DNA of 64,000 nt from contig WGLR01000017.1 in NCBI GenBank assembly GCA_016125475.1, positions 1-64,000 of the forward strand, written 5' to 3'. The translations under genes were made by a program, and so were the position numbers. The notes below the pieces were generated by a model that worked only from the letters and a program-made list of their open reading frames with translations, ran no database searches and was not told the DNA's origin. Each line of letters opens with the position of its first letter. The first letter of the stretch is position 1. This stretch comes from Betaproteobacteria bacterium. Its GTDB lineage: Bacteria; Pseudomonadota; Gammaproteobacteria; Burkholderiales; Ga0077523. Below, one piece after another: positions 9,769-44,074 of the stretch.

Positions 9769-11449
9769 CCTCCTCGCCCATCCGACCACGGCCCTCTTCC
9801 TGGGGGCGGTGCTCGTGGCCATCCTGAAGGGGCAGGCGCGCAGCGTCGCCGCGCTCGTCGCGCCGCTCCTCGCGCTCTGGCTCGTGTGGCAGGTCCCCGA
9901 AGGCATCGTCTGGCAGACGCACTTCCTCGGTGTCGAGATCACGCCGTTCGCGGTGGATCGCCTCTCGCGGCTGTTCGCGACGATCTTCTCGATCATGGTG
10001 TTCAGCGGTGCGCTGTTCTCGCTGAACCAGACGAGCCGGCTCGAACTCCCCGCGGCCTTCGTCTACGCGGGTTCCGCGATCGGCGTGACGTTCGCGCGCG
10101 ACCTCGTCACCGTGTTCCTGTTCTGGGAGCTCATGGCCATAGGCTCGACGCTCGTCATCTGGAGTGCGGGCACGCGTCGGTCGTACGCCGCGAGCATGCG
10201 TTACCTGATGGTTCACCTCACGGGCGGCGTGCTGCTCCTGATCGGCGTGACCGCGTTCATCGCCGAGACGGGTCAGGCAACCTTCGGCGCGATGACGCCG
10301 CACAGCGTCGGCACGTGGTTCATCCTCGCCGCATTCCTGGTCAACGCGGGCGCACCGCCCCTGTCGGCGTGGCTGCCCGATGCATACCCCGAGGCGTCGT
10401 GGAGCGGCACCGTGTTTCTTTCCGCATTCACGACCAAGACGGCCGTGTACGCACTCCTGCGCGGCTTCCCCGGCGCAGAGATCCTCGTGTTCGTCGGGTT
10501 GTTCATGGTGTTCTACGGCATCCTCTACGCGCTGCTCGAGAACGACATGCGCCGGATCCTCTCGTACAGCATCGTGAACCAGGTCGGTTTCATGGTCACG
10601 GGCATCGGCATCGGCACCGAGATGGCGCTGAACGGTGCGGCCGCGCACGCGTTCGCGCACATCATGTACAAGGCGCTGCTGCTCATGTCCGCGGGGTCGG
10701 TCTTCTACGTGACCGGCAAGCGCAAGTGCACGGATCTCGGCGGGATCTTCCGGACGATGCCGCTCACTGCCATCTGCGGGATCGTCGGCGCGCTCGCGAT
10801 CTCCGCCTTTCCGCTGACCTCCGGATTCATCAGCAAGTCGATGATCGCTCAGGCTGCCGCCGACCGGCACATGACCGTGGCGTGGCTCCTGCTGGCTGCC
10901 GCGTCCGCGGGGGTGTTCCTCCACGCAGGCATCAAGTTCCCGTGGTTCGTGTTCTTCCAGAAGGACTCCGGGCTGCGCCCGCCCGAGCCGCCACTGAACA
11001 TGCGGATCGCGATGATCCTGCTCTCGGTCGTGTGCGTCGGGCTCGGTGTCTTCTACGAGCCGCTCTACCACATCCTGCCCTACGCGACGGACTACAGGCC
11101 GTACACCGCGGACCACGTCGTGACCCAGCTCCAGCTCCTCCTGTTCGCCGGACTCGCGTTCTTCGTGATGCTCGGGTGGCTGCGCCGCACGCTCACGATC
11201 TCGCTCGACTTCGACTGGTTCTATCGTCGCCTCGGGCCCGCCCTCGTGCGTATCGCGGAAGCCGTGATAGAGGCCGGGCGCGCAGCCGTGCGGACGGCGG
11301 TGTTCGACACGATGCGCGCCGTGGGTGCCTGGCTCGTGGCACGACACCGTCCCGATGCGCTGCTCGCACGTACCTGGAGCACGAGCGGCATGGCACTGGG
11401 CGTCATGCTGATCCTGCTCGCCTATCTGGTCGGTTTCTACGTGCTCTGA
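9761..11449 (+). CDS. third NuoL/M/N-like antiporter subunit
   Basis: A 562-residue polytopic protein of the antiporter-like superfamily. The TM5 glutamate is in FLFWELMAIGST, the TM7 lysine in AFTTKTAVYALL, and AHIMYKALLLMSAG is present near the middle. Compared with MrpD it has a C-terminal extension of about 100 residues ending in another helix, as in NuoL/MrpA-like proteins. The ATG at 9761 sits six bases after GGAGG (9750-9754), which favours it over the ATG at 9755. It is the last gene of the ten-gene operon. Confidence 0.9.
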   Translation: MTSLLAHPTTALFLGAVLVAILKGQARSVAALVAPLLALWLVWQVPEGIVWQTHFLGVEITPFAVDRLSRLFATIFSIMVFSGALFSLNQTSRLELPAAFVYAGSAIGVTFARDLVTVFLFWELMAIGSTLVIWSAGTRRSYAASMRYLMVHLTGGVLLLIGVTAFIAETGQATFGAMTPHSVGTWFILAAFLVNAGAPPLSAWLPDAYPEASWSGTVFLSAFTTKTAVYALLRGFPGAEILVFVGLFMVFYGILYALLENDMRRILSYSIVNQVGFMVTGIGIGTEMALNGAAAHAFAHIMYKALLLMSAGSVFYVTGKRKCTDLGGIFRTMPLTAICGIVGALAISAFPLTSGFISKSMIAQAAADRHMTVAWLLLAAASAGVFLHAGIKFPWFVFFQKDSGLRPPEPPLNMRIAMILLSVVCVGLGVFYEPLYHILPYATDYRPYTADHVVTQLQLLLFAGLAFFVMLGWLRRTLTISLDFDWFYRRLGPALVRIAEAVIEAGRAAVRTAVFDTMRAVGAWLVARHRPDALLARTWSTSGMALGVMLILLAYLVGFYVL

Positions 11450-11590
11450 GTCTCCGCGGCGCCGCCCTGCGGCGCGTGGGCGCATCCGCGGCGCGATTCC
11501 GTGCGATCATCGTCTCCGACCGTGCGTCCGTGCCTGCAACTTTATGGCCGCGCCCCGCTCGAATTCACAACATCACGATCCATCAGGACC

Positions 11591-12007
11591 ATGAAGAACT
11601 ACACGACAGACAGTGCCGAAGCCATGGCGCGCGTGCTCGCCATGACCATGATCACGGATGCCCGTCTCGATGACACGGAACTCGAGATCATGGATCACCT
11701 TTTCCTCTACGACGTCCTCGGCATCTCGCGCGACGACTTCTCCCGGGTGGTCGGGGACTACTGCGAGGATCTGCTCGAGGGCGGCGCGCCGGACGGGAAG
11801 ATCGCGCTCATGGACGAGAAGCGCATCGACGCCGTCATCGGCTGCGTGAAGGACCCGCAGAAGCGCCTGGTCACGGCGCGCATGATCGCGAACATCATCA
11901 AGGCCGACGGCAAGCTGCACGACGCCGAACTCGCGCTGTTCCGTCACATCCTGGAGCGCTGGGATCTCACGCTCGACCAGCTCAAGGGACTGGTCCACCC
12001 CGCCTGA
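11591..12007 (+). CDS. TerB-like protein
   Basis: A 138-residue, mostly helical acidic protein resembling the TerB/DjlA-type helical domain. Acidic pairs recur as DARLDDTELEIMDHL near the N-terminus and KADGKLHDAELALFRHIL near the C-terminus, which suits a metal-binding four-helix repeat. It appears cytoplasmic, with no signal peptide. It lies 141 bases after the antiporter operon and may be read through from it. A weak AGGA precedes the ATG. The exact role is unknown; TerB-domain proteins are linked to metal or oxyanion stress. Confidence 0.7.
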   Translation: MKNYTTDSAEAMARVLAMTMITDARLDDTELEIMDHLFLYDVLGISRDDFSRVVGDYCEDLLEGGAPDGKIALMDEKRIDAVIGCVKDPQKRLVTARMIANIIKADGKLHDAELALFRHILERWDLTLDQLKGLVHPA

Positions 12008-12079
12008 CCGCGGCACGACGGGACGGCGGGTTTCCGGGCTCCCGTCCCGTATCGCCACGGAAAGCGCCGTCGCCGACCT

Positions 12080-12111
12080 TCGCACGCGTCGACCTTCGCA
12101 CACGTCGACCT
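12080..12111. repeat. 16-bp tandem direct repeat, two copies
   Basis: Units TCGCACGCGTCGACCT (12080-12095) and TCGCACACGTCGACCT (12096-12111) differ at one base. They end two bases before an FNR-type box. They may bind a second regulator or be a chance duplication. Confidence 0.6.
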
Positions 12112-12112
12112 G

Positions 12113-12126
12113 TTGACCTGCGTCAA
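12113..12126. promoter_or_regulatory. FNR/Anr-type box
   Basis: TTGACCTGCGTCAA matches the TTGAY-N4-RTCAA pattern of FNR-family sites on both half-sites. Its centre (12119.5) lies 41.5 bases before the start predicted from the CACAAT -10-like element at 12149-12154. This is the class II activator position, and it would switch the downstream transcript on at low oxygen. Confidence 0.6.
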
Positions 12127-12148
12127 GAAACGCCGGCCTCGCATTCTG

Positions 12149-12154
12149 CACAAT
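12149..12154 (+). promoter_or_regulatory. -10 element of putative FNR-dependent promoter
   Basis: CACAAT matches four of six positions of TATAAT. It sits at the spacing expected for an FNR class II promoter, with a start near 12161. No separate -35 is needed when FNR is bound at -41.5. Confidence 0.4.
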
Positions 12155-12160
12155 TGCTCC

Positions 12161-12323
12161 ATCGCACCTCGCGGCCCCGCGGGATTCAGGGCCGGGTCTT
12201 CTCGAGTGCAGCGTGCCGGTGTTTTTCCGCCGTCGGGGGTAGCGACCTGACGGAGTTCGGTGGTTGCTTCGCTACGTCGTTTCAGGGATTTCGGGGTGTC
12301 CTCGGACACCCCTTTCTTTTTCA
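12161..12323 (+). ncRNA. candidate FNR-regulated small RNA
   Basis: About 160 bases run from the predicted start to a strong intrinsic terminator, between terB-like and the convergent dapA-family gene. No coding frame of its own is convincing; the overlapping open frame mostly runs antisense into the neighbour. Several local stems are possible: CGCGG/CCGCG at 12170-12181, GTAGCGA/TCGCTAC at 12239-12275 with an inner CCGTC/GACGG, and the terminator stem. FNR box, -10, structured body and terminator are what one expects of an anaerobically induced trans-acting RNA. The alternative is an ordinary terminator far downstream of the antiporter operon. No known RNA family was recognised. Confidence 0.45.
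12293..12323 (+). terminator. intrinsic terminator
   Basis: GGGGTGTC (12293-12300), a CTCG loop and GACACCCC (12305-12312) are followed by TTTCTTTTTC. The T-tract is on the plus strand only. It ends the putative small RNA and any read-through from the upstream operon before the convergent gene. Confidence 0.85.
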
Positions 12324-12356
12324 TTCTTCGTTCCGTGCCGCTCGATTCGCAGCCTG

Positions 12357-13319
12357 TCACGCCGCGTGTCTGAGCGCCCCCTCGCGCGCAACCCCCGCCT
12401 CCTGCAGCGCGCGCCTCAGGTCCTCGATCTCCTTCGCAGGAATCTTCACGAGGGGCGGGCGCACGAATGCCTTCTCGAGTCTCCCGAGCAGCACGAGGGC
12501 TTCCTTCATGCGGTTGTGCATGTCGAGGAACGGTGGCGCGTAGAAGGCCTGCGCGAGCGGGACGATCCGGTCGTTCACGGCGCGTGCAGCGGCGAGGTCT
12601 CCGGCCTGCACGGCACGATACAGCGCGACCTGCAGGTCGGCGATGACGCTGCCGGCGCCGGACAGCAGTCCGGCGGGGCCCATCGTGAGGGAAGCCATGA
12701 GCCACGAGGAGTGCGTGGTCAGCACGTTCACCGGGCGCGGAAGCGTCTGGAAGGTGCGGATGTGGCGTTCGTGCAGCATCGCGTCGTTCGACCAGTCCTT
12801 GATCGCCCGGATTGCGGGGACCTCGTCGAACAGCCGCAGGAGCGTGTCGAACGGATATCCCAGTCCTCCGGCCATGGGGTACTGGAACACGATGATCGGC
12901 AGGTCGGTCGCGTCGGCGATGCGGCGGAAGTGTGCGACCGCCATCCCGGGCCTCAGCTGCCCTCCCATCGCCATGCTGTTCGGCGGAAAGACGAGCAGTG
13001 CCGACGCACCTTCGCGATCCGCCATGGCGGCGATGCGGGCGGCCTCGAGGCTGCCGTCGGCGTACACGCCGTTGATCAGGGGAACGCGGTCGCCGACCTC
13101 CGCGAGCGACGCGGCGAGAATCCGCCGCTGTTCGTCGAAGGTGCAGGCGTGCACCTCGGACGCGTGACCGTTCACCGTGATCGCCGTGATCCCGTCCACG
13201 TTCGCGCAGTCGCGGAGGTGCCTGCGGGTCTCGCGCTCGTCGATCGTGAGGTCTTCGTTCAGTGCGAGCAGCGTCGCCGGAATCACGCCGGCGGGTCGGA
13301 AGTCTGGGAAGCGGCGCAC
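12357..13319 (-). CDS. DapA-family (dihydrodipicolinate synthase-like) aldolase/dehydratase
   Basis: A 320-residue TIM-barrel protein of the DapA/NanA superfamily, which forms or breaks C-C bonds of keto acids through a lysine Schiff base. The lysine is K174 in IKDWSND and the acid/base tyrosine Y147 in FQYPM. The usual GTTGE substrate loop is replaced by TVNGHASE, so lysine biosynthesis is unlikely; a catabolic keto-acid substrate is more probable. The start is GTG at 13319, because GGAGG lies five bases upstream. An upstream GTG at 13346 is less supported. It is convergent with the small RNA locus. Confidence 0.87.
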   Translation of the reverse strand: MRRFPDFRPAGVIPATLLALNEDLTIDERETRRHLRDCANVDGITAITVNGHASEVHACTFDEQRRILAASLAEVGDRVPLINGVYADGSLEAARIAAMADREGASALLVFPPNSMAMGGQLRPGMAVAHFRRIADATDLPIIVFQYPMAGGLGYPFDTLLRLFDEVPAIRAIKDWSNDAMLHERHIRTFQTLPRPVNVLTTHSSWLMASLTMGPAGLLSGAGSVIADLQVALYRAVQAGDLAAARAVNDRIVPLAQAFYAPPFLDMHNRMKEALVLLGRLEKAFVRPPLVKIPAKEIEDLRRALQEAGVAREGALRHAA

Positions 13320-13465
13320 AGGTCCCTCCACTCGTAGACGGAACACACGCCGCCATTATAGGGGACGGTACGCATGCCCCGGCCGCACGCAGCCGCGTGA
13401 CGTCGGGCGGAAACCGCACCCGGACCTCGTTGCGCGGCCCGGGTGCGGCGACTACCGGACCGCGG

Positions 13466-13741
13466 TCAGTTGCGGTCCTCGCTGCCTGAGGACTCGTCGG
13501 TCGGCGAAGCCGGGCTCATGTTCTGGTCCGGGTCGATGGCAGGGCTGGCGGCGTCACCGTTGTCCTCTGCGGGTGCGCCGACGTCCGGTTGCGCAGCCCC
13601 GGAATCGGCCGGGTCGACGGCTGCCGGTGCGCTGTCCGGGGGTGCTGCATCGCCTTCCTCCGCCCGGACACCTGCGGAGAGAGTCGCCGCCACGAGCGCG
13701 AGTGCGAACATGAAGGTCGTGATTACGCGTCTGGTTTCCAT
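13466..13741 (-). CDS. small acidic secreted protein
   Basis: A 91-residue protein with a Sec signal peptide (FMFALALVAATLSAGVRA, about residues 10-27). The mature chain is short and disordered, rich in Asp, Glu, Ala, Pro and Ser with no aromatic residues. An AAAGG ribosome site precedes the ATG. No family is recognised. Its composition suggests an unstructured periplasmic or secreted peptide. Confidence 0.65.
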   Translation of the reverse strand: METRRVITTFMFALALVAATLSAGVRAEEGDAAPPDSAPAAVDPADSGAAQPDVGAPAEDNGDAASPAIDPDQNMSPASPTDESSGSEDRN

Positions 13742-32699: not shown

Positions 32700-32713
32700 T
32701 TGAACGGTATCAA
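32700..32713. promoter_or_regulatory. FNR-like palindrome at hemerythrin start
   Basis: TTGAACGGTATCAA fits TTGAN-N4-ATCAA with one mismatch. It overlaps the AAGGAG ribosome site. If real, FNR would probably repress here; the overlap with the ribosome site may make it a coincidence. Confidence 0.3.
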
Positions 32714-32723
32714 GGAGAGACCC

Positions 32724-33155
32724 ATGGCGGTCATCGAGTGGAACGACAGGCTCGCGATCGACGACGGCGTGATGGACGAGACCCATCGCGAGTTCGTGGA
32801 TCTGGTCAACCGCATGGCCGACGCGCCGGACGAGCAGATGGAAGCGATCGTCGACGAGTTCATCCGGCACACGGAAGAGCACTTCGGGCAGGAGGAGCGC
32901 TGGATGCGCAGCCTGTCCTTTCCCCCTCTCGGCTGTCACAAGCGTGAACACGACGGCGTGCTCGAGATCGCGCGCGAGGTGAAACAGCGTATCGCGCGAG
33001 GCGAGATCCGCTTCGGTCGCGTGCTGGCCCAGGCCGTCGCGGAGTGGTTCGCCGATCACGCGGCGTCGATGGACACCGTGCTCTCGATGTACATGAAGGA
33101 CCAGGGCTACACGCCCACGGTCGGCGCTCTCGAAACCACCGAGCAGGCCGACTGA
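32724..33155 (+). CDS. bacteriohemerythrin
   Basis: A 143-residue single-domain hemerythrin that should bind O2 at a di-iron site. All seven ligands are seen: H21, H53, E57, H72, H76, H112 and D117. Helix-rich with no signal peptide, so it is cytoplasmic, for O2 storage, delivery or sensing. A strong AAGGAGAG precedes the ATG at 32724. It stands alone. Confidence 0.93.
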   Translation: MAVIEWNDRLAIDDGVMDETHREFVDLVNRMADAPDEQMEAIVDEFIRHTEEHFGQEERWMRSLSFPPLGCHKREHDGVLEIAREVKQRIARGEIRFGRVLAQAVAEWFADHAASMDTVLSMYMKDQGYTPTVGALETTEQAD

Positions 33156-41640: not shown

Positions 41641-43740
41641 TCAGCCGTTGAACCTGCCGCCCTCGCTGCCGAGCCTTTCCAGCAGTGGTGCGGGCTTCCA
41701 GAACCGGCCGAACCTCGCTTCGTATCCGCGCACGGCGTCCAGCACCTTGTCGAGCCCGACGGTGTCTGCGTAGAACATCGGGCCGCCACGGTAGCGCGGG
41801 AACCCGTAGCCGTAGAGATACACGATGTCGATGTCGCTCGCGCGCTGCGCGATGCCTTCCTCCAGCAGTTCCGCGCCCACGTTCACGAGCTGGTACACGC
41901 AGCGTTCGAGGATCTCCTGGTCGCCGATCTCGCGGCGTTCGATCCCGGCTTCCTTCGAGGCCTCGACGATCAGTGTCTCGATCTCCGGATCGGGAATCGG
42001 CTTGCGGCTGCCCGTCTCGTAACGGTAGTAGCCCGCGCCCGTCTTCTGGCCGAAGCGCCCCTTCTCGCAAATGCGGTCCGCGATCGTGGAGTAACGCTCG
42101 TTCGGGTCGCGCGTGGCGGCCTGACGCTTGCGGATCGCCCAGCCGATGTCGAGGCCGGCGAGATCGCTCACGCGAAACGGCCCCATCGCGAAACCGAACT
42201 CCTCCATCACGCGGTCCACCTGCTGCGGGAGGGCGCCCTCCTCGAGCAGGAAACCCGCCTCGCGGAAGTACGCGTGGACCATGCGATTGCCCACGAATCC
42301 GTCGCAGACGCCCACGAGGACGCCGACCTTCCGGATGGTCTTCGCGAGCTTCATGCTCGTCGCGATCACGTCGTTCGCGGTCTTCGCGCCGCGCACGATC
42401 TCGAGCAGGCGCATCACGTTCGCCGGGCTGAAGAAGTGCAGCCCGATCACGTCGGCGGGCCGTGACGTGACCGCCGCGATTTCGTCGATGTCGAGCGTCG
42501 AGGTGTTCGTCGCGAGGATCGCACCCGGTTTCGCGGCTGCGTCGATCTTGCGGAAAACGTCCTTCTTGACGTCCATTTCCTCGAACACGGCTTCGACGAC
42601 GATGTCCGCATCGCCGATGTCGTCGTAGCTCAGCACCCCCGTCAGGAGACCCATGCGCCGGTCCATCGCATCCTGCGAGAGCCGGCCTTTCGCGACGGTT
42701 GCCGCGTAGTTTCGACGTATCGTCTCGAAACCCTTGTCGAGTCGATCCTGCGCCGCCTCGAGCACCTTCACGGGGATGCCGGCGTTCGCGAAGTTCATCG
42801 CGATGCCGCCCCCCATCGTGCCTGCACCGATCACGGCCGCCGTCCTGATCTCCCGCAGCGGGGTGTCGTCCGGAAGATCCCTGACCTTGTTGGCGGCGCG
42901 CTCCGCGAAGAACGCGTGACGCAGGGCCTTCGACTCGGTCGTGCCGACGAGGTGTTCGAACCGCTCGCGCTCGAACTTCACGCCCTCGGCGAAGGGTCTG
43001 CGGGTCGCTGCCTCGACGCACGCCAGGCATTCGAGTGGCGCGGGGTAGCCGCGATGCTCTCTTGCGATGCGCTCGCGCGCCTGCGTGAAGAACGCGTCGA
43101 CATCGCCGTCCACGGCCACGGCGAGCGCGCTCGCGCGGCGTATCGGCCGGCTTTCCCTGACGACACGGGTCGCGAACGCGATCGCCGATGCGCGCAGATC
43201 TCCGGTCACGATCTCGTCGACGATGCCCAGTTCGTGCGCCTTCTCCGTGCTGACCGGGTCACCCGACACGATCATCTCGACACCTCGGGCGGCACCCACC
43301 AGCCGCGGCAACCGCTGGGTTCCGCCTGCCCCGGGCAGGATGCCCAGCTTCACTTCCGGCAGTCCGATCTGCGCCCCCGTGATCGCGCAGCGGTAGTGTG
43401 CGCCGAGCGCCAGTTCCAGCCCGCCCCCCATCGTCGGCCCCGCGATCGCGGCGACGATCGGTTTCGTGATCGTGTCCATGTACGCGAGCACGTCGCGCAG
43501 GTTCGCCATGCCCGGAACGGGTGGCTTGCCGAATTCCGAGATGTCGGCACCACCGGAGAAGTTCCTGCCCGCGCCGATGAGCAGGAACACGCGCACGGCC
43601 GGGTCGTGGTCTCCCTGCTTGAGCGCGTCGAGGATGCCCTGGAGCAGTCCCTTGCTCACCGAGAGCGCATTGACCGGAGGATTGTTCAGCGTGATGACGC
43701 CGACGTGGTTCTTGACCTCGTATTCGATGATGTTGGACAT
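41641..43740 (-). CDS. bifunctional enoyl-CoA hydratase/3-hydroxyacyl-CoA dehydrogenase (FadJ-like)
   Basis: A 699-residue multifunctional beta-oxidation enzyme. The crotonase domain (about 1-190) has oxyanion-hole sequences (GRNFSGGADISEF) and the catalytic-region glutamate in GLPEVKLGILPGAGG. The NAD-binding domain starts near 295 (VIGAGTMGGGIAMNFANAG), followed by the catalytic histidine in GLHFFSPANVM. A C-terminal dehydrogenase domain is duplicated. No thiolase gene is adjacent. Confidence 0.93.
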   Translation of the reverse strand: MSNIIEYEVKNHVGVITLNNPPVNALSVSKGLLQGILDALKQGDHDPAVRVFLLIGAGRNFSGGADISEFGKPPVPGMANLRDVLAYMDTITKPIVAAIAGPTMGGGLELALGAHYRCAITGAQIGLPEVKLGILPGAGGTQRLPRLVGAARGVEMIVSGDPVSTEKAHELGIVDEIVTGDLRASAIAFATRVVRESRPIRRASALAVAVDGDVDAFFTQARERIAREHRGYPAPLECLACVEAATRRPFAEGVKFERERFEHLVGTTESKALRHAFFAERAANKVRDLPDDTPLREIRTAAVIGAGTMGGGIAMNFANAGIPVKVLEAAQDRLDKGFETIRRNYAATVAKGRLSQDAMDRRMGLLTGVLSYDDIGDADIVVEAVFEEMDVKKDVFRKIDAAAKPGAILATNTSTLDIDEIAAVTSRPADVIGLHFFSPANVMRLLEIVRGAKTANDVIATSMKLAKTIRKVGVLVGVCDGFVGNRMVHAYFREAGFLLEEGALPQQVDRVMEEFGFAMGPFRVSDLAGLDIGWAIRKRQAATRDPNERYSTIADRICEKGRFGQKTGAGYYRYETGSRKPIPDPEIETLIVEASKEAGIERREIGDQEILERCVYQLVNVGAELLEEGIAQRASDIDIVYLYGYGFPRYRGGPMFYADTVGLDKVLDAVRGYEARFGRFWKPAPLLERLGSEGGRFNG

Positions 43741-44074
43741 GTGTCAGCCGCCTTGTGGTGAATCGTGCCGCATCGGCAGGAACGCCGGGTCGGGGCGAGT
43801 GGCTCGCGCGAACCCGACGTGCCCCGGACGGGCACCGGACCGCGAACTTTAGCGCACGCCCGCGACAGACGCTTTCCGTGCCACCGCGACGCCACGAGCC
43901 CTTCCCTTGATTTCGGTCAATCCGTATGACTTTCCGCGGAGCGCGTGACACGGCGCTTCGGCATACCATGGGCATGCGGGTGTGTTGCGATGGACTCGTA
44001 CCGTCGCCCGGGTCGACGGGTTCCGGCGCAGGGGCAGCCGTCCTGCAGAGGCGGCGAGGGTGGAGACGACGCAC
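43741..44074. other. divergent intergenic region with FNR-type box
   Basis: 334 bases between the fadJ-like gene (minus) and the 1079-residue membrane protein (plus). It contains TTGATTTCGGTCAA at 43907-43920. No gene is supported. Confidence 0.55.
43907..43920. promoter_or_regulatory. FNR/Anr-type box
   Basis: TTGATTTCGGTCAA has a perfect left half-site and GTCAA on the right. A TACCAT at 43964-43969 could be the -10. The box would then centre near -62.5, close to the class I activator position, for the plus-strand gene starting at 44075. Confidence 0.5.

Follow-up and report, generated by a model that had tools for sequence, protein, structure and literature searches.

The segment from position 12113 to 12321 of the analysed DNA probably comprises the promoter and the gene of a small RNA (sRNA) under the control of FNR. 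The best explanation is a genus-restricted, FNR-activated and trans-acting sRNA which is analogous to FnrS and outside the FnrS sequence family. The observations behind this reading are conservation, covariation, the geometry of box and -10, the presence of FNR and Hfq genes and the complementarity to one gene start; from these we infer transcription, FNR dependence, Hfq binding, repression and the target. The element is located in a stretch of 64,000 nucleotides (here referred to as the window) with a GC content of 68%. A TerB-like gene and a convergent gene of the dihydrodipicolinate synthase (DHDPS) family flank it, leaving a gap of 349 bp (12007 to 12357). The following features were assigned, with "members" or "carriers" denoting the six genomes that contain the element:

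11591..12007, + strand: TerB-like flanking gene, outside the RNA (PF05099, 23.8 bits, just below the curated cut-off of 24.4)
12113..12126, + strand: FNR-type box TTGACCTGCGTCAA, centre at -41.5; in 6/6 members the only TTGA-N6-TCAA box within 350 nt upstream of the core
12149..12154, + strand: -10-like hexamer CACAAT, 22 nt past the box; identical 22-nt distance in 6/6
12161..12321, + strand: predicted small RNA of about 161 nt; start placed by the box geometry and end by the terminator
12230..12253, + strand: 5' stem-loop of the conserved part with GTAGCG (12239-12244) as its loop; both sides changed in 4/7 inner pairs among the six genomes, pairing in 88-90% of its cells
12262..12288, + strand: near-invariant 27-nt block GGTTGCTTCGCTACGTCGTTTCAGGGA; same in 5/6 members, one substitution in the sixth
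12270..12275, + strand: CGCTAC, complementary to the loop GTAGCG; six pairs kept in 6/6, one via G-U in one genome
12276..12288, + strand: proposed seed GUCGUUUCAGGGA; 11-13 consecutive pairs, no more than one of them G-U, with the start of a 42-aa ORF in 6/6 carriers
12293..12321, + strand: intrinsic terminator with 8-bp stem, loop CTCG and U-rich tail; found by terminator scan, four pairs changed on both sides across six genomes
12357..13346, - strand: convergent flanking gene of the DHDPS family (PF00701)

The box, the hexamer CACAAT and the spacing given in the initial annotation could all be read directly from the sequence, the box centre (12119.5) being 41.5 bp from a start at 12161. With the start site placed accordingly, the layout corresponds to the geometry of class II activation by FNR at -41.5. 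Across the six members the box centre was located 133-204 nt 5' of the core. The hexamers 22 nt after the box were CACAAT, CAGACT, CACACT, CACACT, TAGAGT and CAATCT, and in every one the second base is A and the sixth T. By eye, the sequence around and between box and -10 was little alike among the six, except for the close pair G005 and G006. The half-site AATCAA was common to the other five members and the window's own box deviated most. A sigma-70 scan of 10500-13500 found no promoter, which is also expected for an activator-dependent promoter without a -35 hexamer.

Within the 64 kb window the pattern TTGA-N6-TCAA was observed three times versus 0.15 times expected, and none of 100 shuffles reached three. 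The second box, TTGAACGGTATCAA (32700-32713), overlaps the ribosome-binding site of a gene with a hemerythrin domain (ATG at 32724, PF01814). It would be placed for repression rather than activation, unless this gene starts elsewhere. The third box, TTGATTTCGGTCAA (43907-43920), lies between an enoyl-CoA hydratase-like minus-strand ORF (41641-43740) and a plus-strand ORF of 1110 aa of no assigned kind.

The GC stem and T-tract described for the end of the RNA are present as the hairpin GGGGTGTCCTCGGACACCCC (12293-12312) followed by TTTCTTTTT up to 12321, in agreement with the terminator scan. A U-tailed terminator was kept in all six members. Thermodynamic folding alone was unremarkable (z -1.02; 30 of 200 shuffles equally stable). 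Since the single strand folds no better than its shuffles, the case depends on the relatives and the structural evidence is comparative. Pairs were counted on the RNAalifold structure over the alignment of the six members. Here, 94.2% of the cells were paired and eight pairs were changed on both sides (14 cells), four of them in the stem 12230-12253 and four in the terminator. When the partners were slid by 1-3 columns as a control, pairing fell to 40.4-47.3%. None of 500 shuffles equalled the alignment in covariation score, in the number of pairs changed on both sides or in the share of paired cells, a count which, coming from six related sequences, is not a probability; for further pair types, one of the five pair measures, 124 of 500 shuffles reached the observed value.

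If the loop GTAGCG pairs with CGCTAC, the result would be a pseudoknot with GUCGUUUCAGGGAUUUC unpaired. Alternatively, GTGGT and GCTAC could form a local hairpin. Both structures are possible, as the GTAGCG/CGCTAC pairing hardly varies and hence does not decide between them. The single-sequence folds differed among the members, including how open the linker was, and those of G001 and G006 showed an extra hairpin right at the predicted 5' end. Near this end, CTTCGGGGTGAGG was present in G001 (locus L014), G005 (L012) and G006 (L011) and absent from the window, G002 and G004. In the folds of G001 and G006 it makes up a hairpin, which the fold of G005 lacks. That the RNA has no readable gene of its own was borne out, as no ORF closing within it was common to all six members. 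A small protein was considered and rejected: a frame beginning with GTG/ATG-GTT-GCT (VASLRRF...) stays open across the core and on beyond the terminator, and the six have no closed ORF in common.

In total, box, -10, covarying stems, core and terminator were found in six of 12 genomes of the genus. The conservation of box and stems in relatives, on which the proposal had been staked beforehand, was thereby observed. In a BLASTN search of 12080-12330 against 41 genomes, among them the source genome, five clear matches were obtained apart from the self-match. All five belong to the genus, with E from 1.2e-27 to 6.2e-12, and fall within roughly 12218-12321. A covariance model built from the six members was applied to the 12 genus genomes and to a draw of 399 genomes from the order. 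Such a search for conserved stems had been suggested in the initial annotation, and it returned the six genus members at 84.8-117 bits and the next match at 36.5 bits. Matches at E up to 0.1 occurred in 111 of the 399 order genomes, all of them at 36.5 bits or less beyond the six members. Neither the remaining six genus genomes nor any other of the 399 order genomes yielded the element. Members outside the genus were rejected, since three of the best non-member loci that were read proved to be plain terminators. Among 48 non-member loci (L040-L087), none had an exact box or a copy of the core with fewer than 10 mismatches of 27.

The core pattern was additionally searched in genome_contigs (84,980 species, contigs of at least 3 kb), which may omit the window's own record. 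Five contigs matched and all were members, belonging to metagenome-assembled genomes (MAGs) labelled Betaproteobacteria (two), Burkholderiales, Rhodocyclaceae and Pseudomonadota. The enterobacterial framing is a slip of the initial annotation: the source genome is not enterobacterial and the named relatives are MAGs carrying one of these four labels. A mobile origin was rejected as well, with the core pattern absent from viral_contigs and plasmids giving one weak match (E 0.9). The carriers G000, G001, G002, G005 and G006 grouped together with a support of 0.93 in the FNR tree and 0.53 in the concatenated tree. G004 joined them in the FNR tree (support 0.65), and its placement was not settled in the concatenated tree. 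The carriers may thus form one clade.

FNR was found above the curated cut-off in 11 of the 12 genus genomes, including all six members, whose FNR proteins each showed C-x2-C-x5-C and a later HTC. A counterpoint to an FNR-controlled sRNA is that the RNA is absent from half of the genus, although five of these six non-carriers have an FNR over the cut-off. Hfq was likewise encoded in 11 of 12 genomes, again with all six members included. AUUUC precedes the terminator hairpin in four of six members, and the longest U run ranged from 5 (window) to 8. The overall layout of the RNA, from its 5' part to the U-tailed terminator, would fit an Hfq-binding, trans-acting sRNA.

The genes surrounding the element differ between the carriers. 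TerB was present in G000, G002 and G004 and not found in G001, G005 and G006. PF00361 was detected upstream of the element in the window, and the genes upstream of the RNA in the members that were read are presumably of the Mrp type. This position behind Mrp-type genes would suit an RNA that is no more than the 3' untranslated region of the Mrp/TerB genes with its terminator, or an sRNA processed from that region. Against such an origin stand the own box and -10 geometry in all six members, with the box even overlapping the TerB stop codon in G002, and the TerB genes of the non-carriers G003, G010 and G011, behind which neither box nor core was present in the 257-450 nt inspected; we rate it as very improbable. 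On the 3' side of the RNA, the window has the convergent DHDPS-family gene and G001 another convergent ORF; the remaining members have mutually unlike same-strand ORFs. Among the latter, a hemerythrin-like gene follows in G005 and G006 (PF01814 was tested for G006, G005 assigned by likeness) and further same-strand ORFs follow in G002 and G004. By eye, similar segments are repeated several times behind the hemerythrin gene of G006 (L011:2150-2720) and likewise in L012 of G005, as a tandem or dispersed repeat. As a hemerythrin-like gene is a plausible FNR target, the box and promoter could drive the downstream gene, with the hairpin as attenuator or leader element. However, in both the window and G001 the gene that follows runs convergently, all six members retain a terminator with a U tail, and the following gene differs in kind and orientation, so that the RNA is not the leader of one gene. 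This arrangement is accordingly very improbable.

Which regulator occupies the box is a separate question. Dnr/NnrR-type proteins use sites near-identical to those of FNR, and a protein of this kind within the CRP/FNR family would make nitric oxide the signal instead of oxygen. Further CRP/FNR homologues are encoded in G000, G001, G005 and G006, and those of the members at L101-L103 and L106 lack the C-x2-C-x5-C arrangement (L100, L104 and L105 were left out). The cysteine-bearing FNR, in contrast, was the sole type found in all six members at the threshold used, and we consider another regulator unlikely. The preferred reading remains a separate sRNA gene controlled by FNR.

For such an RNA, targets were sought with the complement of the 3' half of the block (a 14-mer) in the six carrier genomes, allowing at most two mismatches. 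This gave 120 matches, of which six were the RNA itself. 44 loci were examined, and four of these in four genomes represented the start of the same 42-codon gene. The ORF encodes 42 residues with one hydrophobic stretch (MTGVILLG...; L144:739-864 in G002 and G000:C3:12580-12705) and adjoins cupin and DoxX genes in G002. Homologues were present in all 12 genus genomes and in five of 194 other order genomes searched, the five coming from two families. No Pfam family exceeded its cut-off for the protein (best TraD, E 0.06 and 0.046) and NCBIfam gave none; the best of the PDB sequences had an E of 0.87, and none was found on plasmids.

The ORF starts with GGAGTTCCCTGAAATGACTGG in G000, G001, G002 and G005, with GGAGTCCCCTGAAATGACTGG in G006 and with GGAGTTTTCCTGAAATGACTGG in G004. 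The longest run between seed and start with at most one G-U was 13, 13, 13, 13, 12 and 11 pairs in the six carriers; with two G-U allowed, the run of G004 is 14. In the six non-carriers the same run was 7, 7, 6, 10, 7 and 7, the value of 10 belonging to G009, and it was 5-7 in four homologues outside the genus (a fifth, G134, was left out). The match covers the ribosome-binding spacer and the AUG in all six carriers. None of 230 other gene starts sampled in G000 reached 13 (best 10), and by duplex energy four of the 230 paired equally well or better; this sample, like the starts of fnr and of the neighbouring genes, rests on crude start finding. In 20,000 trials with shuffled cores, a run of at least 12 on two of the target starts came up twice. 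Over a few hundred genes with conserved starts we estimate the chance expectation at about 0.05.

A conserved start is not rare, given that one of six neighbouring genes had an invariant block of 14 nt at its start versus 15 nt in the 42-aa gene (of 11 orthologue groups found, starts were set for six and five were dropped). The spacer of the 42-aa gene is constant among the carriers, whereas that of fnr varies. Furthermore, five of the six carriers group together, and shared descent therefore explains part of the match. A composition-matched control 14-mer had 79 matches; the nine examined, from its two most recurrent strings, included no gene start, lay inside open frames and recurred as orthologues in pairs only. 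The target prediction called for by the initial annotation thus yielded a candidate matched in six carriers, which is tentative, with chance and common descent as remaining explanations. We tentatively regard the 42-aa gene as a likelier target than any other single gene, and that it is the target has a chance approaching even.

A second seed search with GTAGCGAAGCAACC gave in each genome fewer matches than its own backward control, with at least 30 loci, 24 of them outside the RNA. One recurrent match, ATGGCCGTAGCCAAGAAACC, was observed at the start of an ORF (MAVAKKP...) in G001, G004, G005 and G006 (L227, L228, L229 and L230). It is near-complementary to the other half of the block, with a pairing to the RNA that is interrupted twice, and we take it as conserved coding sequence or as a weak lead to a second target.

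A real FNR-controlled sRNA could also act elsewhere, on other mRNAs or a protein partner, in which case chance, aided by common descent, would account for the match to the 42-aa gene. GGTTGCTTCGCTAC, which forms the rest of the block, is equally conserved, and the only recurrent gene-start match noticed for it is the interrupted one in conserved coding sequence. The chance estimate given above and the 10 bp kept by G009, which has no RNA, point in the same direction. On the other hand, in 6/6 carriers the match coincides exactly with spacer and AUG, and in 6/6 non-carriers it is shorter (in G009 by one pair only), and the control 14-mer gave no gene start among its nine inspected recurrent matches. 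An action elsewhere is a serious possibility, somewhat below an even chance.

Comparison with known systems was made on several levels. No Rfam family reached its gathering score in the window, and the gap 12008-12356 had three chance-level matches at E up to 10. Because the Rfam search and the literature, searched by titles and abstract openings (MAG names not covered), gave no description of the RNA, we call it undescribed. PMC3032703 and PMC8139620 describe FnrS of E. coli and other enterobacteria as a stand-alone sRNA which represses mRNAs for functions dispensable in anaerobiosis, and its FNR-dependent class II site is at -41.5, as in the present layout. In contrast to FnrS, the gap 12008-12356 had no match to RF01796 even at E up to 10, with the E. 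coli fnrS control scoring 134.8 bits, and model R1 gave no match around E. coli fnrS. The present RNA also differs from it in lineage, in neighbours and in predicted target. A further close system, compared by description, is fnrS (AniS) of Neisseria, a betaproteobacterium; in the searches made here, the core motif of the present RNA turned up in this genus alone.

By its description in PMC3032703, gonococcal fnrS is similar in being an FNR-induced sRNA with a 5' stem-loop, an unstructured middle and a terminator, and differs in lying beside bacterioferritin genes and opposite NGO0796. PcrZ of Rhodobacter and PaiI of Pseudomonas, compared by description, are likewise sRNAs made in low oxygen; however, in the account of PMC8139620, PcrZ depends on PrrA and FnrL, and PaiI on NarXL with a probably indirect role of ANR. 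We place the present RNA outside the FnrS sequence family, and its analogy with FnrS is strong. What is new here is that in all six carriers the linker is complementary to the start of the gene for a 42-aa membrane protein, its tentative target.

In the mechanism we propose, FNR would bind the box at -41.5 in low oxygen and, judging from the geometry, activate the weak -10 by the class II mode. This would yield a stand-alone RNA of about 160 nt in which a variable 5' part is followed by the conserved stem-loop, the invariant linker and a terminator with a U tail. The linker GUCGUUUCAGGGA(UUUC) would serve as seed, and its target would be the translation start of the 42-residue single-span membrane protein, GGAG-UUCCCUGAA-AUGACUGG. 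Pairing over the spacer, the start codon and the next codon would repress translation in low oxygen. Taken as a whole, a genus-restricted sRNA, possibly pseudoknotted with an exposed 13-nt linker, that coevolved with the start of the 42-residue protein and shuts this protein off in low oxygen is conceivable, if short of an even chance. The two would make up an oxygen switch that differs from FnrS in both sequence and target.

FNR-controlled sRNAs are known from a few model lineages. Another such sRNA with the same promoter layout, outside the FnrS family and in uncultured betaproteobacteria, would suggest that the wiring of FNR to sRNAs arose repeatedly. The predicted target would give a first regulatory context to a small membrane protein of no known function, and could be tested in E. 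coli.
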